From Liolophura sinensis (Eukaryota > Mollusca > Polyplacophora > Chitonida > Chitonidae): a stretch of 64,000 bases of DNA. A program made the translations under genes and the position numbers. The notes beneath the pieces were generated by a model, which was not told where the DNA came from, did not search any database, and saw only the letters and a program-made list of their open reading frames with translations. Location: positions 7,451,704 through 7,515,703 of the forward strand of contig NC_088304.1 of assembly GCF_032854445.1 (NCBI RefSeq), given 5' to 3'. Shown piece after piece: positions 122-32,000 of this stretch. The stretch's first letter is position 1, and each line of letters starts with the position of its first letter.

Positions 122-3100
122 CTGATGTGGAAGTCGGTCAGGCCAGTTCTCTCAGTCTTCCAGTGGACATGAACCAGGAAGAATGGGGCTGAGCTGGGAT
201 AGTCCGGCTTCAACACTATCTGAGAGGTCAGCTTGGCTGAAAACACAAACAGGCACAGGTGTCTCATAATAGTAGGCCTGTGGTATGACAGTTGGTTGGA
301 AACATTAAAAGGCCTATCTACATGTATTATTTATTTCCAAACTTCTTGATACATGTATAAAACAAACAGAGCACACCATTCAAAGAAATGAAACAAGAAA
401 AAGGGTGATCAGATGCAGCACTGAAAATTATATCCAAAATACCTTCACTTCTCGGCATTCGAGTACTCTTGTATAGAATTATAAAATGCAATTGAATATT
501 TGAATTCTGACCTTGTCTTTATGGATCCTACCAACTCTCAAGGGTGTTGCTAACATAACAGGTTTATCTTTTTGGCCCTACACCTTGTTTTAAAAGGTCA
601 GATTAGCTCTTTAAGTGCATCAGTGCATATTGTGCGCATTGAGGGTGAGGGCGTACTGAATAATTTCAAACTTTACATTTATACAACAAGATTACCTATG
701 TTGTATTAGAACAGTTTTTCTTTCAAAATCATTCTGTTACCAACATACATTTTATAGCTTCCTTTGTTTTACAATTACTTGTACATCATGGGCAAACATA
801 ATCCAACTACATAAAAACCTGAGCCTCTGTCCACCACAGCTGTGAAGAAGATGTCTGCCTCCTCCGCAAGACCACTGTCTATTGCCGTCTGTGTGTAGGG
901 GAGGCTCTGGAAGGGGTAAAACAATGTATCAATATCAGGAGGTAATAAGGCTTTAAACAAACTGTTTAAACTGAGGCGCCTTACCGAAGGCAAGTAAGCC
1001 ACCCCGGCCACGGGTCAACCAGTAATTGCACTATCCCCTTCATGCTAAACGCCAGGTGAGGAAGTTACACACAGAATAATGAAATGTGAAATTATAATTA
1101 TAAGCCATGATGTGAACATGATACATAATGCCAATGCCCCACAGCATCCTACACTACTAACCTGGCTAGCTTTGGTCATGATACATAATGCCAATGCACC
1201 ACAGCATCCTACAATACTAAGCTGGCTAGCTTTGGTCATGACATGTATGAGGACTACACAGGATGAAAGCTTGATTTGTGAACTCAGTGAAGAATCTGTA
1301 TACATGAACTGACAATTACATCTTTATGAATGAAGTCTTGATACAAGAACTAACAATGAAATCTTGATTCTTGAATCTTGAAGAACTTACAATTAAGTTT
1401 TGATACGTGAACTTAAAATGAAGTCTTGACATGTGAACTTTCAATGAAGTCTTGATATGTCAATTGGCAATGAAGTCTTGATATGTTATCTTACAATGAA
1501 GTCCTGATATGTGATCTTACAATAAAGTCTTGACACGTGATCACACAATGAAGTCTTGATATGCCATTTTACAATGAACTCTAGATACATCAACTAATAG
1601 TGAAATCTTGACACGTGATCATACAATGAAGTCTTGATATGTGAATTACAATGAAGTCATGATAGGTGAATTACACTGAAGTCTTCATGCGTGAATTTAC
1701 AATGCAATCTTGATATGTGAACTTACAATGAAGTCTGCATATGTAGACCGTCTCCAGGAAGTGAGTTGAGACAGGATTTTGGTTGGGAATAGATTCTGAT
1801 GTTCACTGGACACAGGAACGCTGTACCTCTCTGGAGAAACACAAGAGATCAAAAATAAAACCTCTGGTGGTTACATGTGGGTGCTCAATCCAAGGCCACA
1901 GATATTCAGTACTGTTCTCGGTTTTGTTCACTGGCACATCTACTTCCTTTGGTCATGCAAGGCAGTCTCCTCATTAAAAATCAAGCATGCCAATTTCTAA
2001 TACATTTTCAAAAATTGTGAATATATCCTCTTTTCATTGGGAAGATGGTATATTTTTTAACTCTGTTGATGCCAATTTCCAGTGCACGCCGGGCAACCAT
2101 TTCCACTATGCTCGGCGTGGCTCCAGTGCACATCATTTTCTGCGGAGCAGCTCAATAACTTTTCCATCTCGGACTGAAGACGATCTTTTCCCTGAAAAAC
2201 TCATCAACCTTGTTTCTGAATGACCAGGTTTCTTTAACAAAACCACTAATGATTACAAAGATCTAAATATTCATGACAATGCCTGGCAGTAAATGGCCGA
2301 GCAGCTACTGTAAACCTAGGAGTTAGTTAACCTAGGAAAAAAAATGTAGCCCAAGATCAGAACGTACACCTGCGGCCCAAATAGGCCGTATTTCCTCACT
2401 CAACTCCTCTATGCAGGTGATCCTGGAAATCTGCTATGTTGACACTAGGCTGGAAAATTTGTCCAGATTCAGAACCGGTTTTTGGCCTGTTGGTTGCATT
2501 CATACCTATACAATTTTAATCATGGTGTGTGTGTATGTTACCCAATTACAGACGGAGTTAACCTCCTGATAATTTGATAAGTACAACCAGTGAACGATTC
2601 TTGTGACAAGCCACAGTGCAACCACTATGACTGTGAATTTCATGATTCATAAATAAAAACGTAATGAGAGAGGAGACATGAGGGAGAGAGTAGAAACGTA
2701 CATGCGCATGGTTTTATGTAAGAAACATCATACAGGAACCACACTAATGTAGGTCAACGTCATCCATGCTGATTGGTGACAATTAAATTGAAATTAATTA
2801 AATTCAATTAAATTCGGTCACTTCACATTTTTCTACCCCAAACTTGAAAATATGGGTCTAGCCACATCAGACTTTCACACAAGGTAGCCCTGGCTGATTA
2901 TTTCACACCTCTCCCCATAATGAGAGATATGATATAGCCACCTCAGACTAGCCCCATTACAAAAACTACAACGACCATAATCTAGGTAAATTATATTGTC
3001 ACATTAAAACATACATGTCACATAGACATAAAAACTTTGATATAGTTCATTTACCAGAAATCGCTAGCTCAGCGTCATGACCCAGAAGCCTCTCACGAAT

Positions 3101-6100
3101 GCGGTCGCTGTGAGTTCAAGTCCAGCTCATGCTGGCTTCCTCTCCGACTGTACATGGGAAGGCCTGCCAGCAACCTGTGGATGGTCGTGGGTTTCAACCG
3201 GGCTCTGCCCCATTTTCTCCCACCATAATGCTGGCTGCCGTCATATAAGTGAAAAGTTCTTGAGTACGGTGTAAAACACCAATCAAATAAATAAATAAAG
3301 AAGTAAGAGAAGAAAGAATAATAACTAAAAAAAAAGAAAAGAAAAAAATGTGACTGTTAGAGATCCGTTTCCGCTGTCGCATGGCCACAATAAGTGAAAC
3401 AAGCAATTCTTCTTCTGAGTCGTCTTCAGCAGGGTCGCGGTTGCTATGTTTGGCGGTGGCAGCCACTTTGTATCAACAACTGGCTCGTTCGTCATCCGCG
3501 ATGTTCGGCAGACATCGGATGTACGGCGCAAAGGGAAACTGCCCATGTGGCGTGACGTTGCAACGTGCTGCGAGGATTTTGCAGCGAGCCCGGCAGTGGA
3601 AATTGGCCTTAAGATGGAGATAGTGTAAAGTAGGACCTCAATCTAGTGTTACGTGAAAAAATGATTGTTGCAATAATGAAGTGTATTAGTTTCTACTGTA
3701 ACGTAATTCTTCCTTTACTGTGATGTCATATTGACGAGCAGGGAAACGAACATTTGACTTCAATGAAATGGCGTCAAGGTCCTACTGCCGGGCATTTGAC
3801 AGGATCCCATTTATAGCAAGCATAATAATGTTAAAGCAAAAGTACAGAATGTATCTAGGGTTCAACAGAATCCTGTTTTTGTAGCCTAGGGCTTTGACAT
3901 TTGAGCACAGCATAGGCAGAATAACTTGATTTCAGTCAACACAACCATACAAGGGTCAATAATGTGATAGTGAAACTGGGAAAATGGTCAACCAATCAAA
4001 AGTAAATGGGAGAATGGTTAACCAATCAAATGTAAATGGGAAAATGGTCAACCAATCAAAAGTAAATAGGAGAATGGTTAACCAATCAAATGTAAATGGG
4101 AAAATGGTCAACCAATCAAAAGTAAATGGGAGAATGGTTAACCAATCAAATGTAAATGGGAAAATGGTCAACCAATCAAAAGTAAATGGGAGAATGGTTA
4201 ACCAATCAAAAGTAAATGGGAAAATGGGTAACCAATCAAAAGTAAATGGGAAAATGGTCCACCAATCAAAAGTAAAGATGCAGTCCTATCCCATAAACAG
4301 TTGCAGCACTACGTTTCTCTATGATATTACTTGTGACAAAAAAAAACATATAATATTATTTTTTAATATTAACGCATTGAAAATAATGGATTCTGCATTG
4401 GCCTGTTGAGTCCACGATGGCATACAGTGATGGCACATGGCATGATACATGCTGGGATTCCATGATTTCTAAATTTTAAATTGATGTACCTCTCTGTAGT
4501 GCTATGGATTCGGACTGATGACAAATGTTACATGTACTATTTAAAACAGAAATATGTCCTAAGGGCAAACAGACCACAATGTAATCCAAATACTTTTAAA
4601 AAGTCATAAAAAAAATATATCTAGTTGTTTTCTTGGAACATTTTAGACTCCTTTTTTTTTTTTTTGATGTGTGCTTCATTTTTTTTTTCTCTTAAATATT
4701 CTGAGTACATCCACTAGCCAGATTGCCTTACCCAATGAGATGAGCTGTTTGAGCAGAGCAAGGCGTGCTTTGAGCCGTTGTCGTAACAGACGGATAGTCT
4801 CCTGCATATAACTCGCGCTGACTGTGCTTCTGGCCTTGACCTGTTCGGTGTCCGCCAGGAACTGGAGGCCTCCAAGCCACTGCGCCCAGCGGTACGGCTT
4901 ACCAGTGTGGCAGATATGCTCACTGAAATCTGTGGATCTGTAGAGAAACACAAATATTCTGGCTGACTTTGGATTTGATGAAAGAATTCATGTATGCAGA
5001 GTAAATGACCTAAACTTCGCCCAAAGCAGTGCAATTTTAGAAGCAAATAAAATACTATTATTGGTGCTGAAAGTTTTTCCAGTAGGATATCATCATACCT
5101 TTCAAACAAACCTTAAAACCACATTTCTACAGTCACTAGATCTCTCCAACTCAGACAAGATGTGAAAAATCTGACATGGGCGAAAATGTAAGATCAATTA
5201 CCATACTGTGAACTTTTAGTCTTTAAGTACTTACATTTTCTGAAGAAACAGCCAAACATACAGATTGACATCTCAGCACAAAATGGTCAGGTAAACGATC
5301 TTTAATAAATGCAGAAGTGTTTTCATGGTTTCATAAGAATAGGACATACCCAACTCGTCGTAAGTCATAGTGATTGGCCGGATTGGGCGTGTTGTTACCA
5401 TGGTCACCAGGATAAAGATCATCTAAAATGGAATCCGGTGACAGCAGATCACTGGAGAGAAAAACAGATAAAACATAAATTATTGAACAATGTTTATGTG
5501 TTTTATTTAAAACCTTTTAGGACTTAAATGCCCTTCAATTTTCCATACGTGAGTCTAATTATCTAATTATAACATGTCACACATTCATATTTGCCGACTT
5601 ACTTGTACATAAAGATTTATTGATTTATTTGATTGATGTTTTACGCCATACTCAAGAATATTTCACTTATACGACGGCGGCCAGCCGGGCAGAGGGAAAC
5701 CCACGACCATCCACAGGTTGCTGACAGACCTTCCCACTTCTGGCTGGAGAGGAAGCCGGCTTGAGCTGGAGTTCAACTCACAGCGACCGCATTCGTGAGG
5801 GGCTTCCGGGTCATTACGCTGCGCTAGCCCGCTAACCAACTGAGCCACGGAAGTCCCCTGTACCATATAAGTCATAACTGCAGCTGTTTTGGAGGATGGT
5901 GTAACCATAGTTACCACATGATGAGACAGACACCAAGTGAAATCTACCTCACATGCCTCATAATTTTGTCAATTTTAACACTTCCATGCCAAATCCTGAG
6001 CATTTTTCTGAAAATTGTTTGAAATAAAAAAAAGGAATTCCTCTAAAATGCCAGTTTTGAATACTAAGACTCACCCTCCAGAAATAGAGTTCAAATTGGT

Positions 6101-9100
6101 GTCTCCAGCAGCCTGAACTTTGACACCTACTGTGACGATGTTTAGCATGACGATGTATGTAAAACTCAACTGGAGAGAGCTGCCATCTGGGAAAAAACAG
6201 TTATATCATAAATTACAAAATGAGACAGATCACAGGAGTAAACTCAAATGTGACATTTGTACTATAATTTACTTCCTACATCACAGAAACTACAACTGTC
6301 TGGCTCATTCTTGCAATTAACAACATGCTTGGTTTTTGCTCTGCATTTCCACATTTCGTCTACCCTAATTCTTCTGTTTTTCGAGACAGTTATTAGTACT
6401 GCTGAAAGCAGAATATTGCGTTTCTTTCTCAGCTTTTTGGGAAAGTAAAGATGCAAGTATGCTGTTCATTATGAAAATGAAACTAAATATTCTTGCTACA
6501 GCTACATGCACATTGGCAAACAAGAGCAGGCCAGGCGTCCCAAAAATGAGAATAGGGTAGTTTTTACACAGCCAAAATAGCTAGTTACCCTGCCTTCCAC
6601 ATCTCCTTTAAGCACAGTGTAATAGTATGCCAACTGGTAGAGCCTTGAATAACTTGATCATGTTCTGTTTTATTACTTCTGACTTCCTGTTGATTAAGGC
6701 CACACCAGTTTAAATGGTTGTTTTACAGATGGAGCATATCTTATGTCTGGGTTGAAAGGGAATATTATTTTCTGGGAAATGTGGACTGTCCCAGCACTTT
6801 TGAAAATAAAGACATATTTGTATGATCAGAAAACTTCGAAATAAAAACAGGAAAATCATGAAAATATCAAGATCAGACAAAACATATAATTGTGCATTTA
6901 CTGTTAAATTTTTATTTGATTTGTGGACTTTTTTGCATTAGCTTGAGTGCAAAACATTTACAATGCAAACTAAAACAGGTGTCAAGAAAAATGCACCCGA
7001 CCTTTACAACGTATTTCCAGAGTGATGAACAAAGGATGCTTCCTGAAAATTCTGTCTTTGGCAGTACTGTGTCTCTCATCATGGGTCTTGCGCCTCCGCT
7101 TCTAAAAACAGGCAAGGAAGAACAGAATTTAGCTTACACAAGGTTAATATGTGATAAATCATTGATAACAAACCAAAGTAAACACACACACAGAGAGAGA
7201 TGATTGCCACTATGTTATTTGATAGTTTGCATGTCTGTACTCCATCGAGTCTGATAGCTCACTGGATCAATGCTACTAAAATACCAAAGACCATACTGAG
7301 GAATTCTGGGAAGTATGGTTGCAAGAAGTCAGTTTTGTCTCTCAGTAAAAGTGAGTGAGAGTACTTAGACTGGGAATCATATGTGTACACCAATCAATGT
7401 GGAGTGGGAGTACTTAGACTGGGGATCATATGTGTACACCAATCAATGTGGAGTGGGAGTACTTAGACTGGGAATCATATGTGTACACCAATCAATGGGG
7501 AGTGGGAGTACCTAGATGGGGAATCATATGTGTACACCAATCAATGTGAGTGGGAGTACTTAGACTGGGAATCATACGTGTACACCAATCAATGGGGAGT
7601 GGGAGTACCTAGATGGGGAATCATATGTGTACACCAATCAATGTGAGTGGGAGTACTTAGACTGGGAATCATATGTGTACACCAATCAATGTGAGTGAGA
7701 GTACTTAGACTGGGAATCATATGTGTACACCAATCAATGTGGAGTGGGAGTACTTAGATGGGTAATCATATGTGTACACCAATCAATAAGGAGGGAGGAG
7801 TACCTAGATGGGGAATTATATGTGTACACCATTCAATGTGAGTGAGAGTACTTAGACTGGGAATCATTTACACCAATCAATGTCGAGTGGGAGTACCTAG
7901 ATGGGGGATCATATGTGTACACCAATCAATGTGGAGTGGGAGTACCTAGATGGGGAATCATATGTGTACGCCAATCAATGTGAGTGAGAGTACTTAGACT
8001 GGGAATCATGTGTACACCAATCAATCAGGAGTGGGAGTACCTAGATGGGGAATCATATGTGTACACCAATCAATGTGGAATGGGAGTACCTAGATGGGGA
8101 ATCATATGTGTACACCAATCAATGTGGAGTGGGAGTACTTAGACTGGGAATCATACGTGTACACCATTCAATGTGAGTGGGAGTACTTAGACTGAAAATC
8201 ATATGTGTACACCAATCAATGAGGAGTGGGAGTACCTAGATGGGGAATCATATGTGTACACCAATCAATGTGAAGTGGGAGTACCTAGATGGGGAATCAT
8301 ATGTGTACACCAATCAATGTGAAGTGGGAGTACTTAGATGGGTAATCATATGTGTACACCAATCAATGTGGAGTGGGAGTACTTAGACGGGGAATCACAT
8401 GTGTACACCAATCAATGTGAGTAGGAGTACTTAGACTGGGAATCATATGTGTACACCAATCAATGTGAAGTGGAAGCACTTAGACTGGGAATCATATGTG
8501 TACACCAATCAATGTGGAGTGGGAGTACTTAGACTGGGAATCATATGTGTACACCAATCAATGTGGAGTGGGAGTGCTTAGATGGGGAATCATATGTGTA
8601 CACCAATCAATGTGAAGTGGGAGTACCCAGATGGGTAATCATATGTGTACACCAATCGATGTGAGTGGGAGTATCTAGATGGGTAATCATACGTGTACAC
8701 CAATCAATGTGAGTGGGAGTACTTAGACTGGGAATCATATGTGTACACCAATCAATGAGGAGTGGGAGTACCTAAATGGATAATCATATGTGAAGTGGGA
8801 GTACCTAGTGGAAGTGGAAGCACTTAGACTGGGAATCATATGTGTACACCAATCAATGTGGAGTGGGAGTACTTAGACTGGGAATCATATGTGTACACCA
8901 ATCAATGTGGAGTGGGAGTGCTTAGATGGGGAATCATATGTGTACACCAATCAATGTGAAGTGGGAGTACCTAGATGGGGAATCATATGTGTACACCAAT
9001 CAATGTGAAGTGGAAGCACTTAGATGGGAATCATATGTGTACACCAATCAATGTGGAGTGGGAGTACTTAGATGGGGAATCATATGTGTACACCAATCAA

Positions 9101-12100
9101 TGTGGAGTGGGAGTGCTTAGATGGGGAATCATATGTGTACACCAATCAATGTGAGTGGGAGTACCTAGATGGGTAATCATATGTGTACACCAATCAATGT
9201 GAGTGGGAGTATCTAGATGGGTAATCATACGTGTACACCAATCAATGTGAGTGGGAGTACTTAGACTGGGAATCATATGTGTACACCAATCAATGAGGAG
9301 TGGGAGTACCTAAATGGGTAATCACATGTGTACACCAATCAATGTGAAGTGGGAGTACCTAGATGGGGAATCATATGTGTACACCAATCAATGTGAAGTG
9401 GAAGCACTTAGACTGGGAATCATATGTGTACACCAATCAATGTGGAGTGGGAGTACTTAGACTGGGAATCATATGTGTACACCAATCAATGTGGAGTGGG
9501 AGTGCTTAGATGGGGAATCATATGTGTACACCAATCAATGTGAAGTGGGAGTACCTAGATGGGTAATCATATGTGTACACCAATCAATGTGAGTGGGAGT
9601 ATCTAGATGGGTAATCATACGTGTACACCAATAAATGTGGAGTGGGAGTACTTGGATGGGGAATCATATGTGTACATCAATCAATGTGGAGTGGGAGTAC
9701 CTAGATGGGGAATCATATGTGTATACCAATCAATGCGAGTGGGAGTACTTAGACTGGGAATCATATGTGTACACCAATCAATATGGAATGGGAGTACCTA
9801 GATGGAGAATCATATGTGTACACCAATCAATGAGGAGTGGGAGTACCTAGATGGGGAATCATATGTGTACACCAATCAATGTGAAGTGGGAGTACTTAGA
9901 TGGGGAATCACATGTGTACACAAATCAATGAGGAATGGGAGTACCTAGATGGGGAATCATACGTGTACACCAATCAATGTGGCGTGGGAGTACCTAGATG
10001 GGGAATCATATGTGTACACCAATCAATGTGAGTGAGAGTACCTAGATGGGGAATCATGTGAGTACACCAATCAATGAGGAGTGGGAGTACCTAGATGGGG
10101 GATCATATGTGTACACCAATCAATGTGAGTGAGAGTACCTAGATGGGGAATCATATGTGTACACCAATCAAGGTGAAGTGGGAGCACTTAGACTGGGAAT
10201 CATACGTGTACACCAATCAATGAGGAGTGGGAGTACCTAGATGGGGAATCATATGTGTACATCAATCAATGTGGAATGGGAGTACCTAGATGGGGAATCA
10301 TATGTGTACACCAATCAATGAGGAGTGGGAGTACCTAGATGGGGAATCATATGTGTACACCAATCAATGTGAGTGAGAGTACCTAGATGGGGAATCATGT
10401 GAGTACACCAATCAATGAGGAGTGGGAGTACCTAGATGGGGGATCATATGTGTACACCAATCAATGTGAGTGAGAGTACCTAGATGGGGAATCATATGTG
10501 TACACCAATCAATGTGGAATGGGAGTACCTAGATGGGGAATCATATGTGTACACCAATCAATGAGGAGTGGGAGTACCTAGAATGGGGATCATATGTGTA
10601 CACCAATCAATGTGAGTGAGAGTACCTAGATGGGGAATCATATGTGTACACCAATCAATGAGGAGTGGGAGTACCTAGATGGGTAATCATATGTGTACAC
10701 CAATCAATGTGAGTGAGAGTACCTAGATGGGGAATCATGTGAGTACACCAATCAATGAGGAATGGGAGTACCTAGATGGGGAATCATGAGTACACCAATC
10801 AATGTGGAGTGGGAGTACCTAGATGGGGAACCATGAGTACACCAATCAATGTGAGTGAGAGTACCTAGATGGGGAATCATGTGAGTACACCAATCAATGA
10901 GGAGTGGGAGTACTTAGGCTGGGAATCATATAAAGAGAGCATCACACACTTCTCTTTATTTATGTGCTTCTGATAACAACAAATGACAAATTATTGTGAA
11001 TAACAAATGACAAATCAATGTTTCATTTGACTACTCAGGGCTTACAATTTGGCCCTTGTTCATTGTGGTAGGTCTGTCCCATGAAAACATATCTATAGTG
11101 AATCTTGATGAATCTCTGGATATCACCTGTGACCAGATGGCTGTTGATAGTGCAAGAAGTTATGGATAATGCCAGTGAGTCTTGATGAATCTGAGGATAT
11201 CACCTGTGATCAGAAGGCCATTGATAGTACAAAAAGTTACGGAGAATGCCGGTGAATCTTGATGAATCTCTGGACATCACCTGTGACCAGAAGGCCACTG
11301 ATAGTAGAAGAAGTTATGGAGAATGCCGGTGAATCTTGATGAATCTCTGGACATCACCTGTGACCAGAAGGCCAATGATAGTACAAGAAGTTATGGAGAA
11401 TGATGGTGAATCTTGATGAATCTGAGGATATCACCTGTGATCAGAAGGCTGTTGATAGTACAAGAAGTTACGGAGAATGATGGTGAATCTTCATGAATCT
11501 CTGGACATCACCTGTCACCAGAAAGCCACTGATAGTACAAGAAGTTATGGATAATGCCAGTGAATCTTGATGAATCTGAAGATATCACCTGTGATCAGAA
11601 GGCTGTTGATAGTACAAGAAGTTACGGAGAATGATGGTGAATCTTGATGAATCTATGGACATCACCTGTGATCAGAAGGCCAATGATAGTACAAGAAGTT
11701 ATGGATACTGCCAGCGAGTCTTGATGAATCTGAGGATATCACCTGTGACCAGAAGGCCATTGATAGTACAAGAAGTTACGGAGAATGAAGGTGAATCTTG
11801 ATGAATCTCTGGACATCACCTGTGACCAGAAGGCCAATGATAGTACAAGAAGTTATGGATAATGCCAGTGAATCTTGATGAATCTGAAGATATAACCTGT
11901 GATCAGAAGGCTGTTGGTAGTACAAGAAGTTACGGAGAATGATGGTGAATCTTCATGAATCTCTGGACATCACCTGTGACCAGAAGGCCACTGATAGTAG
12001 AAGAAGTTATGGATACTGCCAGTGAGTCTTGATGAATCTGAAGACATCACCTGTGATCAGAAGGCTGTTGATAGTAGAAGAAGTTACGGAGAATGATGGT

Positions 12101-15100
12101 GAATCTTGATGAATCTCTGGATATCACCTGTGATCAGAAGGCTGTTGATAGTACAAGAAGTTATCAAGAATGCCGGTGAATCTTCATGAATCTCAGGACA
12201 TCACCTGTGATCAGAAGGCCAATGATAGTACAAGAAGTTATGGATAATGCCAGTGAGTCTTGATGAATCTGAGGATATCACCTGTGACCAGAAGGCCATT
12301 GATAGTACAAGAAGTTACGGAGAATGATGGTGAATCTTGATGAATCTCTGGACATCACCTGTGACCAGAAGGCCACTGATAGTACAAGAAGTTATGGATA
12401 ATGCCAGTGAGTCTTGATGAATCTGAGGATATCACCTGTGACCAGAAGGCCACTGATAGTACAAGAAGTTATCAAGAATGCCGGTGAATCTTCATGAATC
12501 TCTGGATATCACCTGTGATCAGAAGGCCACTGATAGTACAAGAAGTTATGGAGAATGTTGGTGAATCTTCATGAATCTCTGGATATCACCTGTGATCAGA
12601 AGGCCGCTGGTAGTACAAGAAGTTATCGAGAATGCTGGTGAATCTTGATGAATCTGAGGATATCACCTGTGATCAGAAGGCTGTCAGAGTGGTCACAAAG
12701 CTATCGTTGGGTATCTTCATTCTGATTAATCTCCACTGGCTGGGTTTTTATCGAAGAATTAAACATCATATACCATCGTTATGAACTACAAGCATATTTT
12801 TGTCACCAAGTGCCTTTGATTTCAACCAATCAATCAGTGATTACAAAGGCCAAATAAAAGTCCTGTAAAGAACTGAATGGTCAGTTTTATGTGCATGGAT
12901 GATTATGGATTAACATCACTTCGGCAAAATGATGGCAACAGTTTTATAGGAGTGACTTTAAACAACTTTTTGGGGTTTCATAAGGCGATGAATAGGCTAC
13001 AACTGCCCACGAGCTCTTGGGTGACTGAGCACCAAAATTAACGTTCTACAAAGTCACAGTGCAAACAATAGGCCAATAGCTTTAGGCTTAGAGCTAAGTG
13101 ATTAGCAAAAAGGCTGATTTTACAAGTTTTAGATGAACAGAATTTTTTTAACAGTTAAAACTGGTGTGGTAGACTCACCGACTTGGCTTTCTCCTGCTCT
13201 TCAGTTTCACTATCGCTGTCCTCATCTGTCAATTACAACATTTCAATCATACATGTACATATCACAATTTCGGCAGTATTTTTTTTTACATATTCTCAGT
13301 TTTCCAAAGAATATTTTGTAAGAATACTTTTTGAATTCTTATTTGTCACTAGCATTATTAAGTGGCATGTTCAAGAATATGTTGTTGAAACAAGTTGATG
13401 GTTATTGATGGTGGAGATTGAGGAGGCCATGAAACTAAGTTGACAATCCATAAGGCTCCATCAAAACTTCGTGTCAATTTACATTCCTTACAACCGGAAC
13501 ATTTAGATCAAACCAGTGCACTTTTGGGGGGCAACAATAGCCACATTAGTAAAAACGTATTAAAGAAAAGCACAAGACAAATGTTCTGTACTAATGCAAG
13601 ACCCAAGAAAGTCTCATTCTTCATCAGGAATTATAGCTAATATAAGCCACATTCATTTTATTGTTGTACCACACTGAACTGCCACCTGTCTGTATCTGAC
13701 AACACTCACCTAACACCATGTTGTCCCAGTTACTTCCCTTGGCAGCTTGGTAATCCCCTTCAATAGTCACAGTGAGGTACTTGTCTAAAAACGAAAATGA
13801 AAGTGATGACCAGACACAACAGAGAAATTATTACATTCACAATGTATTAAGGTGACAAGAACTTCATTTTGTGTTTTAAGATGACATTAGAAAAATCCAA
13901 ATGTGGAATAAAATAAAGATGAAAATCGGCCATTTTATTTTGTCTGATGTTCCTATTTTCCATGGCTAATTTTTACATGATAGGCTTTTTGCATGTAGTC
14001 TAATCTTTATATGATAGACATTTTGCATGTGGTCTAATCTTTATATGATAGGCTTTTTGCATGTAGTCTAATCTTTATATTATAGACATTTTGCACGTAG
14101 GCTAATCTTTATATGATAGGCATTTTGTATGTAGTCTTATCTTTATATGCTAGGCATTTTACATGTTGTCTAATCTTTATATTATAGACATTTTGCACGT
14201 AGGCTAATCTTTATATGATAGGCATTTTGCATGTAGTCTAATCTTTATATGCTAGGCATTTTACATGTTGTCTAATCTTTACATGATAGCCTTTTGCATG
14301 TAGTCTAATTTTTATATGACAGGCATTTTGCATGTAGTCTAATCTTTATATGATAGGCATTTTACATGTTGTCTAATCTTTATATGATAGGCTTTTTCCA
14401 TGTAGTCTAATTTTTATATGACAGGCATTTTGCATGTAGTCTAATATTTATATGATAGGCATTTTACATGTTGTCTAATCTTTATATGATAGGCTTTTTG
14501 CATGTAGTCTAATCTTTATATGATAGGCTTTTTGCAGGTAAATTATAGGCTTTTGCAGGTAATCTTACCGCAGGCCTCTTTGTAGGCGCTGGACTGCATG
14601 TAGAGAACATACAGAGGTAACGGGAGATGTGAGGCAATCTCATGCTGCTCGCAGATCTTGTCAAATGGCATGCACAGGTACTCCTGCACTGGTTTGGTCG
14701 ACTGTGAAGAGACAAATAGTGAAGTCATGATTTGTTTCCTATTAAATGTCTAGAAACACCCTCTCGCAGGCTTCCTCTCCACCCATACGTGGGAAGGTCT
14801 ATCAGCAACCTGCAGATGGTCATGGGTCCCCCCCCCCACCATAATGCTGACCACCGTCATATAAGTGAAATATTCTAGAGCATGGTGTAAAACACCAAAT
14901 AAATAAATAAATACTATCACTACCCCATCTACAAAAATCTGAATTTAAAAGTAAAAAATTACAATAGATTGGGACCTACTTAAAATATTCACAAGCTCAT
15001 CAACGATAAGAACAAATACCTGCCTCAGACGGACTGCTACATATTGATATTAGATCCAAAATGACTACAGGGGCCTCTGTGGCTCAGTCGGTTAGCGCGC

Positions 15101-19752: not shown

Positions 19753-20004
19753 GTTGTCGTGTAGTTAGTATCAGCAATACAATCTAACACTCGGACTACA
19801 TATTACTAACGAAATAAGGACTCACTGGTCCAAGTAAAGTGTTTCCATTATTTACCATGATTTCTAAATAAAATTACTCCCAAAATTAATAATCAGTTCC
19901 AAGGCAAAGAATTTCAAGAGTTTTGAAGAAAAAAAAGGTAAATGCATTACAAAAGAGTAAACGTGTTCGGTTATGGGTCTGGTTAGACAATTCTAACCAT
20001 TCTG
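19753..20004. promoter_or_regulatory. Putative bidirectional promoter between THOC5 and MYBBP1A
   Basis: The two start codons are divergent and only 252 bp apart, so both 5' UTRs and both core promoters must fit here unless a non-coding first exon lies elsewhere. The stretch is AT-rich, has no obvious TATA box placed for either gene and is not a CpG island by eye. No repeat is inserted in it, unlike most non-coding DNA around it. Assignment is by position only; transcription start sites cannot be seen. Confidence 0.6.
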
Positions 20005-23000
20005 ATGGTTTACAAATCAAGCATGGAGGCAAACCACATGGGCGACGCTGGAGGGATTCAAAAAGTTAAAACAACAGATGTCAGTAAGGATATCTTAGAT
20101 AAATTTTGGGTTCTTTCAGAGGGAAAAGAAGTAAAGAGACTGCGTGAAACGAAGAACCTGTTGACTGTGCTGAAAACTAAGCAGTTGGATCATAACAATC
20201 TCCCGAACAAGGTACGTGTATGTAAGTGTAGGCTTGAAGTTGACTACAGCCAGAAAGACTGTGCAGAGTGCAGGCAGTGGCTTTGGAAGTGGTAATGGCA
20301 TTTTGGCAACACATCCTCGGATAAATATGTCGTTAATCATCATACGAAGTAAACAGCTTCTGAGAGACAATGTTATGTTAACTTAAGGAGCAAAGTGTTT
20401 TTCATTTAGATTGTTTTTTTCTTCGCAGTAAGTGAATTCATCTGCTCAGAATTACCTCCCTTGTTACCGGACCTCGACTAAGAGATAACGCGAAACTAGT
20501 TTTTGAGCAGTGAAACTACGAGAGTTTGGACTGAGTCTATTAAATCATGCAGCATGTAGGTTATTTCATGACAGACACAAATATTTTCTAGGCAACAAAA
20601 TGTAAAAAAAAAAAAAAAAAAAACATTGTCCGTTGAGAGTTGCAGATGTCCAGATATGCTAAATGAAGTCCATATTTTTCAGTCTAAAAGAGTTCGGCGA
20701 AGCTGTCTGTCATATTTGCTCGGGGCAGGATTATAAAATTAGCTCTGAATGAATTTGAAAAAAAAATACACGACGAGGCTTTCCAGCTATGTTTACAAAA
20801 ATAAAATTTGTCTTAAAGCTAGGTCTTCAACTAGTTCACCCTCCTGTAACGACAGAAATTGTCATTAGGGATATAGCACTGACGGAAATTGTCATTAGGG
20901 ATATAGTACTGATGGAAATTGTCATTAGGGATATAATACTGACAGAGATTGTCATTAAGGATATAGCACTGACGGAAATTGTCATTAGGGATATAGTACT
21001 GATGGAAATTGTCATTAGGAATATAGTACTGATGGAAATTGTCATTAGGGATATAGTACTGACGGAAATTGTCATTAGGGATATAGTACTGAGGTCTCAC
21101 AGTTTTACTCCAAAAAACGGACCTTTTAAACGGGAGAGTGACCTCAAGGAAGGTAATTCGGTGTGGCTCTGTTGAAGTAAATGTTGATAGTGGTGATATT
21201 TGATGATCTGATAGTAGACAGCAGCATTTTATGACTTAATGATTATGGCGAAAACCCAGTTCCATAGTGTTGTAGCTCTATCGCAACTGAGGAAGTGACC
21301 AGGCAGGACTAGACCAGATTGATAGCCGAGATGATAAGACTAGATTTGAGAGGGGTGGGCTACACATGTTCCAGTAACAAAAACAAATTACTGTACAGAC
21401 ATCTATCACAGCAACAAAGTCAAAAAGAGCGCATTTCAGGATAGATGAATACTGATTTTGTCAAAGTATAAGGAGGAGGTCTGCCTCATGGATCAGCAGT
21501 GTAGACGTGTTGCTTTGGACTTTGACCGCACACTTGGAATGAAAATAGGATAATGCTAGAATGCAGTTTCCAGGCTGCAGAAGGCTCACTGGTTGTCTCA
21601 GAAGCTGCAGACTGAAGGGGAGTCACGAGACACATCTATACTTTGCATATCAGAGTACGGCGTGAACACCAATGAAATAAATAAATACCTTGTCGATCTG
21701 TCAACTGATCCACAATTTGGGCGCACCATTATATAGTGGGAAACAGAACAGAAGTTATTCAAAAGCCTTTCATTCTCTTTTCTTTCAAAACTAGTCAGTT
21801 AAATGAGCTGATGCACATACCTGTCTGGAAATTCCAACTGGGTTTAGAAATTCTTTTATTAAGTGTCGTTGTGATTGTTAACCACCAGATTGTCAGCTAT
21901 TAACTCAATTGATCTAGGACTGGCCCAAAGATGAGAATGACAGATTGGGTTTGAGAGGGGTCAACTACATTTTAGAAGTGACGGTAGAACAAAAACTACG
22001 GCACGGATATTTATCATGGTAACAGGCTATCCAGGAATGTATTGTATGTGGAGAATGGCAGTATTTTACAGATCAAAAATTCCTTGGATAAGGTTAACTC
22101 CCTGTTTACTGTGCAGGTATTAATCACATGACTCAAACATCAAGGCCCTTGGGTAGCAGACTTTTATCGCATTCATCTTCAGTCCTGTCTCGTGTAGAAA
22201 TAAGTGTGTTCTCACATGTTCAAAAAGAAAGCAACTGCATAAAACATATCTTTTTGGATTCATGATTGAAATGTGCTCTTGTTTCATATGTTTTGTGTGA
22301 TTGTGTGTTGTAGAATTTTCCCTTATGTGGAGATCTTCAGTATTCATTGAGAAGACTAGTAAAAGGGTTACCCTCTAGCAAAAAATGGGCCAGAGTGGGA
22401 TTTGCCACAGCTCTAACTCAGGTAATGTAGCAAGGTTGAATGCCATGGCACAGTGGTGTTCAATTGATTGCCATGGCACAGTGGTTTTAAACCGATTGCC
22501 GTGGCAAAGTGGTGTTAAATTGATTGCTGTGGCACAGTGGTGTTAAATCGATTGCTGTGGCACAGTGGTGTTAAATTGATTGTCATGGCACAGTGTGGCT
22601 AAATCGACTACCATGGCACAGTGTTGTTAACTTGATTGCCTTGGCACAGTGGTATTAAATTGATTGCCATGGCACAGAGGTGTTAAATCAATTGCCATGG
22701 CACAGAGGTGTTAAATCAATTGCCATGACATGATGATGTTGAATTGATAGCATAGATTTCATGTTAAAGCTGGTGAAATCTTTTAAAAAGTACAGAAGTA
22801 ATAATATTTGAAAAGTAAGAATTTTGTTTCTTCCTGAGAAGCTCTATGGTGTTCAGATTGATATAAACTCAGATTTATATCACAACAAAACCTCCATTTA
22901 GTTGTAAGAAGCTGGTCAGGAAAACTGAGAGCAAGATACAGGCCTCTAGTCTTCTACAAATTGCACAATTTTTATCCATATATGTAAACATAAACCATTT

Positions 23001-26000
23001 CTACGTTTGTTTTCGTCCAGATCCTGTCGGAGTTTCCAGAGGTGCAGATCAGAGATGTGCTAGCCCTAATCAAGGAGACCTTGACCTTCACACAGCAGGA
23101 GAGTAAAGCGGTAAGTTTGTGATGTTGTGTACATGTGACTTTGACCTTCACTCCCCAGGAGAGTAAAGGGGTAAGTTTGTGATGTTTTGCACAGGTGATC
23201 TTGACTTTCATACCCAAGGAGAGTAAAGGATAAGTTTGACTTTGACTTTGACTTTGACTTTCTTAAAACGGGAGAGTAAACGGGGGAAGTTTGTAATGTT
23301 TTGTACAGGTGACTTCCACCTTCACTCCCTAGGACAGTAAAGGGGTAAGTTTGTGATGTTTTGTACAGGTGACTTTGACCTTCACTCAGTCTGTGTCTTA
23401 GTTTGCTCCCTGAATTTTGTTGCCTTACTAGCAAGTCATATATAACATTTATATCATTTTTTACTGTTTAAATCTTTGCATTGTTGTTAACAAATCCTAT
23501 TTGTTTATTGATTTTATTCTGTCTGATCTAATAAGGATAGATTCTGGATTGACAGCTATCCAATTGGCTGTGTGTTTGCAGTGTACATACATGCGAGTAC
23601 CTGTTCTGCTAGTGTAGACATGATTCTCTGTTCACATAAATACTTGACAAACTGAGCCCAAGGTTACAAAAACTCTGGCTAGGCTGAACATAGTCTCAAG
23701 CCCAGGTGAGTTTTGCTCAGGATCTGAGGTTACAAGGTATCTTCTGACCTCGACTGAGCACAGAACCAGTGTTTGCGAGCATCCTGTTTGGTACTCTTCA
23801 GTTTGGAGACTCAAAGGCACAAAAGTTCCAAAATTAAACCAAATCTGATTCCCATCCTTCTACCGCAGGATATGTATTTCACACGTGTATATCAAGCAGG
23901 GTGGGAAGGTCTGGCAGCAACCTGCAGATGGTAGTGAGTTTCCACTGGGCTCTGCCCGGTTTCCTCCCACCTTAATGCTGGCCACCATTGTATAAGTGAA
24001 ATATTCTTGAGTAGGCGTAAAACACCAATCAAATAAATAAATATATCAAGAAGGGAAAAGTTTGTCATTATCTTGCCAAAGGTCAGTGGTTTGCCGTGGG
24101 CCCTCCCTTTTCTGCCAATGCGGTCGCTGTGAGTTCAAGTCCAGTTCATGCTGGCTTCCTCTCCGGCCGTACTCGGGAAGGTCTGACAGCAACCTGCGGA
24201 TAGTTGTGGGTTTCCCCCGGGCTGTGCCCGGTTTCCGCCCGCCATAATGCTGGCCGCCGTCGTATAAGTGAAATATTCTTGAGTACGGCGTAAAACACCA
24301 ATCAAATAAATAATAAATAAATCCCTTTTCTGCCTTCTAACAGCCTTTGTATCGCTCAGTGAAAAATTCCTGCATAAGGCATTAAACAAGAGTCAAATAA
24401 ATAGTTATGTGTATGTCACATAGAATGACATTATGAATTTTGGTTGTCTTTGTCAGGAGCAGGGGAACATTATGTTTGGTAAAGTGACAGCCCTGATGGC
24501 AATCATACGCTCACGAAGACTTGATCAGGTATGTGCAGCACAATTATTTGTTTGGGGGAAATTCACGTATAGAGATGATTCGGTAACCTCGTACACCCTC
24601 TACCTGATTGGATGATTGGGGTTTCCATAGCCAAGTGGTGAGCGTGCTAGCATAGCACAGTGACCCAGGAGCCTCTCATTAGTACAATTGTCAGTAGTTG
24701 AAGTCTGTTTCGTGCAGGCTTCCTCTCCGGTGGTAAGTGGGAAAGTCTGCTGGGAATCTGTGGGCTGTTTGTGGGTTTTCCTGAGGCTGTACTGGTTTTC
24801 ACATAGCATAATGCTAGTAACCGAGGATAAAATTTAATGAAGAAATATTAATAATTGTAAACTTCCACTGTGTGATAACGTTGTCTTCCATGTTATGAAG
24901 CAAAAACCACAAACAACATACAGTAAGGCTTGGCTGTGCAGGTGAAAATTTATGTGTCACAAGTCGGAAAGCTTCTCTCAGTTACATGCCAAAGGTCAGG
25001 TGGTTTAAATAATAATCACTAATAAGTTAATCAGTCAAATAATCAATTATTGTTTGTGCTTATTTTTGTTTGTTTTGTTTTTTGTTTGTTTTTTTCTCTT
25101 TTTCAGTAATTAAAACATTCTAACATTGTAGGGTTGTGGAGAAGAGACTGAGGGTGTGGTGTCATCTCTGATCCAGCTCCAGGGGAAGAAGAGTTACCTA
25201 CAACAGCCTTGTGTCTGTGGACTACAAATCCTCATCAACTCTGTGAGTACACTCTGAGGGGAAGGGCGGGATGGAGGTGGGGGTGGGGGTGTTAACAAAC
25301 TGTCTATGCCTGTGGATCTGATCAAATGCAGGATAATGCATTTCAAATTATGAAGCATACAAGTATTACATTACTTTGCGGAGAGTACTCCCCATACATG
25401 TATTGGGAGAGAAGATGGGGACAGTGTTAACGAGGCTAGTAGAATTCGTCCCATGGTTAGGGTGCACAAACTTTGGCCATTAATATCTCGAGCCTAAACA
25501 CTTGGTTTTGTGATGAGATTTGTCAAGCACCTTTGAGGGTGGGGGTAGCTTTCTTGGCTTTTTGATGAGATTTGTCAAGCTCCTGTAAGGGTGGGGGTAG
25601 TTTTCTTGGCTTTGTGATCAGATTTGTCAAGCACCTGTGAGGGTGAGGTTAGTTTTTTTGACTATATGACGAGATTTGTCAAGCACCTGCTAGGGTGGGG
25701 TAGTTTTCTTGGCTTTGTGATGAGATTTGTCAAGCACCTGCTAGGGTGGGGTAGTTTTCTTGGCTTTTTGATGAGATTTGTCAAGCTCCTGTAAGGGTGG
25801 GGGTAGTTTTCTTGGCTTTGTGATGAGATTTGTCAAGCACCTGTAAGGGTGGTGGTAGTTTTCTTGGCTTTGTGATGAGATTTGTCAAGCTCCTGTAAGG
25901 GTGGGGGTAGTTTTCTTGGGTTTATGACAAGATTTGTCAAGCGCCTGCCAGGGTGGTGTAGTTTTCTTGGCTATATGACGAGATTTGTCAAGCACCTGCC

Positions 26001-29000
26001 AGGGTGGGGTAGTTTAGGGGGAGCCTCCAGACTGACCGCATGAGATTTGTCAAGCACCTGCTAGGGTGGGGTAGTTTAGGGGGAGCCTCCAGACTGACCA
26101 CACGAGATTTGTCAAGCACCTGCTAGGGTGGGGTAGTTTAGGGGGAGCCTCCAGACTGACCACACGAGATTTATCAAGCACCTGCTAGGGTGGGGTAGTT
26201 TAGGGGGAGCTTCCAGACTGACCACACAAGATTTGTCAAGCACCTGCTAGGGTGGGGTAGTTTAGGGGGAGCCTCCAGACTGACCGCATGAGATTTGTCA
26301 AGCACCTGCTAGGGTGGGGTAGTTTAGGGGGAGCCTCCAGACTGACCACACGAGATTTGTCAAGCACCTTCTAGGGTGGGGGTAGTTTAGGGGGAGCCTC
26401 CAGACTGACCACACGAGATTTGTCAAGCACCTGCTAGGGTGGGGTAGTTTAGGGGGAGCCTCCAGACTGACCACACGAGATTTGTCAAGCACCTGCTAGG
26501 GTGGGGTAGTTTAGGGGGAGCCTCCAGACTGACCACACGAGATTTGTCAAGCACCTGCTAGGGTGGGGTAGTTTAGGGGGAGCCTCCAGACTGACCACAC
26601 GAGATTTGTCAAGCACCTGCTAGGGTGGGGTAGTTTAGGGGGAGCCTCCAGACTGACCACATGAGATTTATGGCTCTCATTACTCTTGACACGATACTGT
26701 GTTTGTGGCGTTGCTGGTTCGCTGTGACCATCAGGCTGTTTTGTCTGTGAGTCAAAAGATTGGCCAGGTACCTTGTGGAGGTCGGTCGTTTTCTCTGGGT
26801 ACTCTGGTTTCCTTCACCTTTAAACTTCACTGCCAGCTTACACATGAAAAATGTTTAAGCACAGCGTTTTAAAAAATTCAAGCAAAGAAATAAATCCACA
26901 TATGTCCACGTGACCTTAAGTCTAGGGTGTATATTGTGTCTGTGTGAGCATTGTATTTACCAGGGCTGTAGTGTAAGTTGAAATAAGACTGATTATTCAT
27001 CTCACCTAAAAGTTAAATGTAACCAGACTCAACAGCTAGGGATTTGAACCACAGATGTCTAGATTTCCAGTCCACACTTCTACCACTAGGCTGAAGGGAA
27101 AATTCCTGCAACCCAGAGGCACATCGTCATTAACAGAAAACTCTAATATCAAGAATATTACACAGTGAAGCTTAAAGGAGAATATTTCTTCTGGAAATGT
27201 ACTAACTGCACTTCGGCGGTTTCCAAAGGCAATTCTCCTCCTAACGCAGAAGACTTCAGGACTAGGCAAAATGGAGCCACCCACAGCTGATTTTGGCGCT
27301 GACTTTATGTATATTTATCGACTTGAAGTACATATTAGAATTTCTTTATATCCTGCACCTGTGAGGAATTGCATACTCTTTTCAGTGGTATTTGATTGAT
27401 ATTTAAATTTTCTTCTCCTTTAAAACACCGTAAGTAGTGTGTAAGGGAGAGGTGGAAATAACAAGTACGTCTTATGGGTTATCCTTTTCACCTTTCATAA
27501 GAGCTTTTTTTTTTTTGACCTCGTCATACATGGTGCCTATAAAACGCATGTTGCATGATGTAGGAATGTTAAAAGATTAGAATGTCATGAAACAAATGTT
27601 CTTTTTTTGATGTCATGGCATCTGGGTGTGAAATATCAAATGTAGTAACAAAAGAAATATCTAACATGGGGGGCCTCCATAGCAGGACAGCAAGGCGCAA
27701 TGGCCCAGGAACCTCTTACCAATGCGATTGCTATGAGTTCAAGTTCAGCTCATGCTGGCTTCCTCTTTTGTCGTATGTGGGAATGTCTGGCAGCAACCTC
27801 CTGATTGTCTTGGGTTTCCCACAGGCTCTGCCCAGATTCCTCCCATTATATTGCTGAACGCCGTCGTGAAATATCTTTGATTACTAGGTAAGACTCCCAT
27901 CAAGTAAATTCATAGATAAATAAAATATCTAGCATGTGAAATTACACTTGAAGACTTTTGTCAGTCATTCATCTGACATTTCAGCTATCTATAAGTAATA
28001 AAGTGATATTCCTCAGGTATATTCACAACTCTTCAGATTACCTGACTTCTTCCTATTGCAGGTGGATAAGGTGACATTCACACAGCACATCCTGCCCCAG
28101 CTGAGAGGAGAACTATCTGCGGGGTGGGAGGGGTGTACCCCTGACAGACTGCTGCTGGCTATCATGGCAGCCAGCAAGGTGAGACCTATTGCCAAGGCAC
28201 TTGTGTACATGGACAACAGGGGTCACATTCACATAATAATAATGTCATATTTATCATAACTTTATTTTGTGAAAGACATTGTCAAGGTTTTAGCTTCATA
28301 ACGTGATGTGACCTACATAGTTATGCGAGATTTTCATATTTCACATTTTCGCAAGTGTGAAAATTTTGTTGTTGTTGTGTACTATTATGGTAATTGTTAC
28401 TTTATTTATTTCATTTTTCTTGCACCCACTGCCCATGATAGCACAGTTTGTAGATCATCCGCTTCGGGAGTGGTAGATTCAGGGTCAATCCTGGGGCGAA
28501 TCACATCTAAGAACTTAAAAAAGGAAGTTCTAACTTCCTCGCTTGGAGTTCAACATAAAGGGGATACGGGTGCAACAAACGGTTGACCCGTATCAATATA
28601 ATGGCTCAGGTGGGGTGGCGTACTTGGCTTCGGTAAGGTGTCTCAGTGAAGCAGCGCTAGATAAAAGTGGAAATCCGTCTTGCAACAAGGAGGCTCATTA
28701 TGTGCACTCGTTTTCGTATGACTGAAAAATTGTATGACCTTAAACGTCAAGCACTTACTCACTCACTTCTTGCATCTGACCAGGCTGTTCTGGAAAATTC
28801 ATTGTGGGCTGTAAATTTGACCTGAAATAATAAGGTCAGCCTGTGGGCAATTCTTTCTTACACTGGTTAATGATAAATACATAGAGAGAGTACAAAAAAT
28901 AACAGTGAATTTTCAGAATTTGAATTAAAACTTTAAAAGTAGAGCTTTTTGTTTTTGGTTTTTTTTTTTGTGGGTGAACATATTTTTAATGCATGCAGAG

Positions 29001-32000
29001 GCATCATCCAAAGGATACAGTTGTTCAGAAGTGTATTAAGAGTTATACCAGGCTTAACTCTTAATACCAGTATTGTTCTTTTAATCACAAAATGAAATGG
29101 GAAACTGGGTTTGACTGCCTGGTTATGGTTGTTGCGCAGAGGTACCTGGTTAAGGGTGGCACGGACAGGTGCCTGGTTATGGTTGGTATGGACAGGTACC
29201 TGGTTAAGTTTGGTATGGACAGGTACCTGGTTAAGTTTGGTATGGACAGGTACTTGGTTAAGGTTGGTATGGACAGGTGCCTGGGTATGGTTGGTTTGGA
29301 TTTTGGTTTTGGTTAAGGTTGGTGTGGACTGGTACCTGGTTAATGTTGGTATGGACAGTTACCTGGTTAAGGTTGGTATGGACAGGTACCTGGATAAGAC
29401 TGGTAATGAAAGGTACATAGTTAAGGTTGGTATGGACAGGTGCCTGGTTAAGGTTGGTATGGACAGTTACCTGGTTAAGGTTGGTGTGGACAGGTACCTG
29501 TATAAGATCGGTAATCAAAGGTACATAGTTAAGGTTGGTATGGACAGGTACCTGGTTAAGTGGGGAGGAGTGGTTTACTCCACTTGAAAACTTGGCCACC
29601 TGTCTTTGAAGTCTTTTGAATATTCAAAACCAGTCCTATTAATAAATCAGTGATAATTTTGATCTGTATGCTTTCAGGGTTTTCTGGACAGGAAGTTCCT
29701 GAAGAGCTGCTGGAATGGGCGATCAATAATGGATAAACAGAATTGGAGTAAAATTCAGGAGGTAGTGCTGGTAAGTTCTGTTTGGTAGGTTCTGTTTGTA
29801 GGTTCTGTTAGGTAGGTTCTGTTAGGTAGGTTCTGTTAGGTAGGTTCTGTTATTGTAAGTAGTAGAACTTGTTAAAAATAAGTCATCTAAAGAAACATAT
29901 TGTGTGCAACTTTGGCTATGTTTTAATCACAAACTGATTTAAAATAAATATTTCTAACACGTCATGGGATAATGTCTTCAAAGTAAATCTGAGATAATGA
30001 TGCTTTCCGAAACTTTCAGAACAATTTCATTGGTTAAATTATATTCAGTTTGTTTGTTTGTTTATCTATGTCAGTGTGTTTATAGCAAAACTGTTTTGAC
30101 ACTTAATGATTTAAGACCTGTGTAGAAGAGATGTTGTAAAGGAACATTAATGTGAAAATGAGTGCACTAAAGTTTGAAGACAAAGATTGTCCGAATTTGA
30201 AGAATGAAGTGAAAAAGTAAGTAAGTAAAACTTGCAAAATGTCGGTTACATATTGTTGTTGTCTCTTATCTGTTATTTCAACCCATAACCTATGCATATA
30301 CAAATATTGTAATTAATAGTAAAACGTCGCAAATTTCACTTAGCCCATTTAATTTTTTGTTTTGTTGTAGAATTCTGCGTCAATTCCACCGATCATCCAT
30401 CCAGTGAATGAGCTTATACTGGAACAAGTGACAGCTGACCAATCACTGCTGGAGTTCTGGTCACATGTCTCAGGTTAGCAATCACAGATGACAGTTAGCC
30501 TGTAATGTTAAAGAATCTAAAGGGGCAATTGCTGGTCAATCTCTCAAGAGTGCCATGTTTCAAAATACAGTCTGAAAGAGTTTTAGTTACATGACAAGAT
30601 GTGATGGTTGTTTACACTGTCTGGCATATTGTCTTCATAAAGTTGATGGAAATATTTGATAAACAATCAAAAAAAAAATGACTAAAGGTTTTTAAAAAAT
30701 TTCAAAGCTCCAGGCTCTAGGTTTGTTTTTTCCCCATTGTTTTTTTTGAAAGTTTATTCTACCATGACTGAACATTTGAAATATAATAAATTAAAATCAT
30801 AAAACTCGCCGAAATTACAGAATTCATTGTTACTTGTACAGTGTACACCATTATGTTTTATTTCTTTCCTGTCTCTCCAGCCGAGCTATTCCAGCCAGAA
30901 AAGAGGAAGCTGAATTACCTGGGATTGTTTTATCTGAAATCTGTCATACCGGCCATAACCACAACAACACAGGTGAGTTGGCAGTGAACTGGTTGGCAAT
31001 GAATTGGTTATTCTTCACATAGAGGTTTTATTAAAAAATACATCATTTGTGGGCAAATACACATGGACAAAAAGTATTAAAATAATTGAACATTAGCTGT
31101 TCAGGGCACCTGGCATCTGCATTCAGCTAAAACCGGGGCTGGGTCATACCAAAGACTTTAAAAATGGTATTTGCTGTTGCCTCGCTTAGTGCTCAGCGCT
31201 GAGAGGTTAGAACAAGGAAACAGGACTGGTTGGCTGGTGTTAGTGTAATGTGGCTGGGCGGGTTGTCATATTTGGTTTTTCTTCAGTGTGATACTTCAGT
31301 GGTGGCAGCACTTAGGCAGCATGAGCTCACCCTGCCACACGGAGACACAATATATGTAGACACACCTAATGACTCCTTAAACTCAAGCATAGACCCCTAG
31401 CATATATACATACATACATACTGCCATTTTATAAATTAATAAAGGATTTTAATTCTTTGGGCTGCCAAACTGTTGTTTTTCAGAACAATTTTCTTCAGTT
31501 CAGTGTTATGATAGAATATTAAATGTTGACATACGATATGACTGGTCACATCACATACTTGTGATCCAGGCCAATCCAGGTCGATTGAAACGTAATAGCG
31601 CAGTGTTAAAATAGACAAATACTTATGTTTTGATATCTTGTTTCTTTCTCTATCACTAAAACCATTATATTTTACCCTACTTTTAATTTTCACTTTTCAG
31701 TTTGTGGAGGTTTTCTCCCATGGTGTTTCTCAGTGTGTGTTGCGAAATCTCTTCTCTAAGCACGGAGGTTTATGGGAAATCACCAAGTCTGTGGTGAGTA
31801 GCAAGAAATAAAGTCACGATCCAGCTGTAGGATTGTGACGTTTTATAATACTGACGTAAGGTTTACTTATCTACGTGTACTCATGGTCTAATGTGTTTAG
31901 TTGGAAGGTGATAATGTTAATAAAACATCACTGCTTTATCTATTACCTCTCATTCCCAAATTCCTCAACCTATTCGCGAATGAAAGAGCAACTCTCAGTG

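Follow-up and report, generated by a model that had tools for sequence, protein, structure and literature searches.

Why should minisatellite arrays in the introns of a chiton lie at 5' splice sites? The question arises from a 64,000-nt stretch of the Liolophura sinensis genome, referred to here as the window (C10:7451704-7515703 of a 609-Mb, 632-contig assembly). An earlier note had described five arrays at or close to donors there, judged the pattern far from random and suggested a donor-linked process, such as R-loops or U1-related effects, as its source. Here we examine the arrays in the window, the frequency of such arrays in an independent sample of exons, and the explanations that could account for them.

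Results

The window contains the minus-strand gene THOC5, identified by its match to human THOC5 (7apk_E, E=4e-56), and the plus-strand gene MYBBP1A, located through two exon matches to PF04931, at ~39.6 kb and ~42.6 kb; a putative third gene, from 60.7 kb onward, was recognised from its sequence as eIF4H-like. The sites at 1727 and 14569 are exon ends of THOC5 by homology to the human protein, and those at 22421, 23110 and 29770 end open exons with splice signals within MYBBP1A (Table 1). The earlier count of 56 donors could not be reproduced: we found 29 supported donors plus a few uncertain ones, and examined 33 acceptors.

TRF detected 15 substantial arrays in the window, and all five of those reported near donors are present. 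Four had been said to begin at the donor itself. That description fits the array at 29770, which starts at -1, but those at 1727 and 23110 extend across the donor, and the one at 14569 starts 28 nt inside the intron. The fifth does begin where it was placed, at +15 from donor 22421. To score this arrangement, we counted gene-sense 5' array edges within -40/+30 nt of a supported donor and placed the 15 arrays randomly, a definition chosen post hoc: five edges were observed against 0.48 expected, and none of 20,000 placements reached five. The departure from randomness is thus borne out. None of the 33 acceptors in the window carried an array, as had also been noted.

The earlier note did not mention that the repeat unit itself includes exon sequence together with the splice site. 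Array 1383-1744 extends 18 nt into the THOC5 exon, and its first copy consists of 17-18 nt of exon (the extent of its exonic homology) and the intron start. The overlap with the exon is 38 nt for array 23073-23385, whose unit comprises ~37 nt of exon tail, ending ...GACCTTCACACAGCAGGAGAGTAAAGCG, and ~23 nt of intron, starting GTAAGTTTGTGATG...; exon tail and donor travel together in the copies, and the copy at +60 retains AAAGGGGTAAGT. Array 29770-29852 spans the boundary by one base, its first copy being the donor itself (G followed by GTAAGTTCTGTTT). The arrays after 14569 and 22421 sit just within the intron. For the former (13966-14540), one or two degenerate copies lead back to ~+5 from the donor, and a search for exonic homology found none.

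Some further features of the window were apparent. The 49-bp array in the interior of a THOC5 intron (3.6 kb) has higher-order periods of 97 and 146 bp. The adjoining 52-bp and 62-bp arrays of MYBBP1A have half of the unit in common, and the 62-bp array is far more uniform (96%) than its neighbour, as if a recombinant unit had taken over. A dispersed SINE-like element recurs on both strands (e.g. 5521-5795, 18951-19360, 24021-24336, 45985-46240).

Table 1. Exons and arrays of the window, with the junction-spanning loci of the independent exon sample.
Feature	Position in window	Strand	Basis and remarks
THOC5 exon	1727..1830	-	donor after 1727, exon end ttcatt then GTAAGT on minus strand; 7apk_E homology, splice signals
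THOC5 exon ending ...YKEAC	14569..14701	-	donor GTAAGA; THOC5 homology, splice signals
MYBBP1A exon (NFPLCGDLQYSLRRLVKGL...)	22314..22421	+	donor GTAATG; gene identity from PF04931 hits further along
MYBBP1A exon (ILSEFPEVQIRDVLALIKETLTFTQQESKA)	23021..23110	+	donor GTAAGT; splice signals
MYBBP1A exon ending ...KIQEVVL	29678..29770	+	donor GTAAGT
26-bp array, 14 copies, spans donor	1383..1744	-	TRF and sequence
34-bp array, 17 copies	13966..14540	-	TRF; follows donor 14569
28-bp array, 11 copies	22436..22748	+	TRF; follows donor 22421
60-bp array, 5 copies, spans donor	23073..23385	+	TRF and sequence
14-bp array, 6 copies of GGTAGGTTCTGTTA	29770..29852	+	TRF and sequence
Comparison: 49-bp array, ~74 copies, THOC5 intron interior	7351..10931		TRF
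Comparison: 77-bp array, ~21 copies, THOC5 intron interior	11098..12681		TRF
Comparison: 52-bp and 62-bp arrays, MYBBP1A intron interior	25501..26669		TRF
Comparison: 27-bp array, MYBBP1A intron interior	29118..29560		TRF; ~118 nt before acceptor
Donor-spanning, first set: L005, L030, L086, L106, L109, L110, L117, L146, L147			
Donor-spanning, held-out set: L152, L153, L161, L180, L183			
Acceptor-spanning: L035, L089, L099, L151, L162			

Donor-spanning arrays in an independent exon sample

We sampled exons through Pfam searches of the genome, blind to repeats, and called splice sites by reading frame and signal scores. A first set of 195 exons (myosin head, kinesin, TCP1, adaptin) and a held-out set of 76 (SNF2, dynein) gave 250 donors and 253 acceptors from ~92 other genes, 66 donors and 67 acceptors of them held out. 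An array was scored as junction-spanning if it covered at least 5 nt of exon and at least 10 nt of intron. We found that 14 of the 250 donors (~6%, in 12 genes) were spanned, compared with 5 of the 253 acceptors (in 5 genes). The junction arrays are of minisatellite size, with units of 14-125 bp in ~2-18 copies (TRF).

Under a null of uniform seeding, with the rate taken from interior arrays and a junction counted as spanned when it fell inside the first copy, 2.2 donor-spanning arrays were expected (Poisson P=1e-7). A more generous zone raised the expectation to 3.7, a 3.8-fold excess over intron interiors (95% CI 1.9-6.3, bootstrap over 92 gene clusters); the corresponding value for acceptors was 1.2-fold (95% CI 0.3-2.6). 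A self-match test with 24-mers, which does not rely on TRF, gave 16 donors against 7.9 expected (P=0.007) and 6 acceptors against 7.3. The donor excess over intron interiors is 2- to 6-fold, varying with the test. These data replicate the donor bias of the window in independent exons, the held-out set included. They also uphold the claim that donors exceed acceptors, for junction-spanning arrays: this asymmetry is moderately significant (Fisher P=0.037, gene bootstrap P=0.014).

The freedom of acceptors from arrays, by contrast, is confined to the window. Across the genome sample, besides the spanned acceptors, nine more array ends lie 0-50 nt upstream of an acceptor, and edges within 50 nt number 18 at donors and 14, these nine among them, at acceptors. 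Around donors, 5' array edges occur at 0.88 per kb from -50 to 0, 0.56 from 0 to 50 and 0.48 from 50 to 100, then at ~0.1-0.3; near acceptors, 3' edges occur at 0.40 per kb inside the exon, 0.71 at 0-50 nt upstream and 0.32 at 50-100. Arrays therefore cluster at both exon ends, those on the acceptor side mostly halting before the AG, and because edges gather near acceptors too, the effect is partly exon-linked.

One kinesin intron of the sample (L003 and L004, C1:4560448-4563627) is seemingly filled in its 3' part by a 31-bp array, which stops 34 nt short of the acceptor; upstream of this array lies a different one, with a 73-bp unit, that begins 43 nt past the donor. Through another kinesin intron (L111 and L112, C9:760288-762777) runs a 47/94-bp array whose unit includes GCAGAGTAAGTC.

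Anatomy of the copies

The exonic homology of the copies extends over 93 nt at 96-100% identity in L030 (four full-length copies), 45-46 nt at 91-100% in L086, 44 nt at ~89-98% in L109, 38 nt in L005, and 29-30 nt in L152 and L106. In L180 the unit is almost wholly exon, as read by eye, the automatic donor call being off by one unit. Many but not all copies keep the AG/GT signals. Donor strength is kept in copies of L030 (3/5), L109 (10/11), L147, L152 (6/6) and L161 (9/10); the copies of L146 and L005 have weaker donors, those of L086 have lost the donor, and at window 1727 most copies show one or the other. Base changes from exon to copy drift to AT (93 S->W vs 53 W->S).

Conserved domains stop at the first donor, and in several cases extending the exon as far as the second donor brings in a stop or a frame shift. 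We also considered unit lengths in multiples of three, as selection on read-through would favour; the proportion, 7 of 14, was indistinguishable from one third.

Discussion

Our results make it probable that these arrays are junction-spanning tandem duplications ('mirage minisatellites'), which are commoner near exons and are tolerated at donors. A tandem duplication would take the last tens of exon bases and the first intron bases, 5' splice site included; the extra copies would fall on the intron side, where they would go on to multiply and become homogenised as minisatellites generally do. If the spliceosome uses the first, 5'-most donor, the protein would stay intact, and such duplications would therefore be nearly cost-free. 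A duplication across an acceptor, on the other hand, would create decoy AGs ahead of the true acceptor and presumably be removed more often, so that acceptor-side arrays would tend to stop just short. Tolerance explains the difference between donor and acceptor, but not the donor excess over presumably neutral interior arrays. Because tolerance alone cannot lift donors above a neutral interior, a further mutational or persistence-related factor is needed. The birth bias near exons that is thus required would act partly through GC and is only partly accounted for: array birth would be raised on both sides of exons, in part since arrays favour GC-richer sequence, and splicing tolerance would then set how far each array may cross.

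Could the missing factor act at donors themselves? One proposal has the arrays seeded by a mutational process tied to donors, be it R-loops, stalled transcription, or breakage and repair linked to U1 at 5' splice sites. It agrees with the excess at donors over both interiors and acceptors, and with the raised number of array starts in the first 100 nt of introns. R-loop seeding, however, predicts raised G-skew on the non-template strand, and the sense G-over-C skew of array units is no higher than that of non-array intron (0.04 vs 0.05), leaving an R-loop cause unsupported; the gathering of edges at acceptors also argues against donor-linked seeding. Nor does the donor motif appear to attract arrays, so that a U1-related cause is likewise unsupported. 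Intron-interior arrays show no enrichment of donor-like motifs (2/70 sense and 5 antisense, 3.1 expected), and among the matches listed, the loci that are arrays amount to 5/45 for CAGGTAAGT and 4/58 for the reversed control (hand count). Genome-wide, triples of CAGGTAAGT exceed those of the reversed motif (237 vs 93), but single matches do so as well (9837 vs 4862); distinct arrays in roughly C1-C3 number 14 and 6, respectively (hand count). We rejected the motif as an attractor, given this matching excess of singles, the similar per-motif array rates and the lack of interior enrichment. A ~50-copy array at C1:93392582-93394463 has a 36-bp unit with a perfect CAGGTAAGT in most copies. We regard donor-linked seeding as unlikely, and give the same low standing to its broader form, that 5' splice sites are true birth hotspots for tandem duplications through a co-transcriptional process. 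Were such hotspots real, several per cent of introns would start with a young array in which a functional donor is duplicated.

Base composition offers another account: arrays would arise randomly but prefer GC-rich, exon-like DNA, and that preference plus sampling noise would be all that lies behind the excess at donors. Interior arrays are indeed GC-richer than their flanks (0.43 vs 0.38, P=0.001; exons, 0.47), and since the copies themselves drift to AT, GC-rich seeds rather than GC gain are indicated. This account could also accommodate the 24-mer test, which shows a 2-fold excess only, and the motif test, which is not significant. The preference predicts, however, only ~1.5-fold at donors (~1.3-fold at acceptors), and the gene-bootstrap interval for donors excludes 1. 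GC preference accounts for part of the donor excess only, and as the whole explanation it seems to us rather doubtful, slightly more so than donor-linked seeding. It is highly improbable that the extra donors are retained by positive selection as spare splice sites: full strength in many copies (L109, L152 and L161, for example) would fit, but intact copies are equally to be expected of young or homogenised arrays, and the donor is lost or weakened in L086, L005, L146 and the copies at window 1727. The Rogers model, in which an intron is gained when an exon segment containing AGGT is duplicated in tandem, has, in our judgment, the slimmest chance of all. The units do carry AG/GT, and an intron in fission yeast that extends over several 24-bp AGGT duplicates has been described (PMC4974935). 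The window arrays, however, fill the 5' part of long introns and stop far from the next acceptor (array end 23385 vs acceptor 24457; array end 1383 vs the next THOC5 exon), and none of them forms an intron that opens at one copy's donor and closes at the AG of a later one.

An intron with as many as 18 near-identical tandem donors offers a natural test of spliceosomal choice between equal 5' splice sites. Such introns may also supply raw material for sliding of introns and lengthening of exons. The arrays extend mirage minisatellites from amphioxus to a mollusc, where they are common (~6% of donors) in an unselected exon sample; the literature that we searched, to which most subscription journals did not belong, held no report of them in molluscs.

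The closest known system is that of the amphioxus 'mirages', minisatellite-like duplications of exon-intron boundaries in Adh3 and the globins BflGb6 and BflGb9 (PMC3087553), and also in TnC and PGBD5 (PMC3902484). These were reported without disturbance of splicing and were proposed as a source of new introns (PMC3087553, PMC3902484). The chiton arrays share with them units of minisatellite size, a unit that spans the exon-intron boundary, AG/GT kept in many copies, and the involvement of either boundary, 5' or 3' (outside the window, 14 donors and 5 acceptors). Within the window the boundary is crossed at 1727 and 23110, and by one base at 29770, but not at 14569 or 22421. The chiton arrays differ in their mollusc host, in their presence at ~6% of sampled donors and in a donor bias that has been measured.

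Other systems are more distant. In ATP2A1 and the potato RdRp gene (PMC4974935), splice-signal sequence was likewise duplicated in tandem, in potato across an intron-exon boundary; the chiton copies, however, lie inside an existing intron without creating a new one, and those checked end short of the acceptor. Human segmental-duplication genes (PMC2812944) have variable internal tandem repeats at exon-intron boundaries, as do the minisatellites here, but the human repeats alter transcripts and can form novel introns, whereas the chiton ones adjoin an unchanged coding exon. Finally, CeRep25B of C. elegans (PMC4039745) is similarly an intronic minisatellite enriched around splicing regions, in its case near alternative exons. 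It is one dispersed repeat family, whereas each chiton junction array copies its own junction locally.
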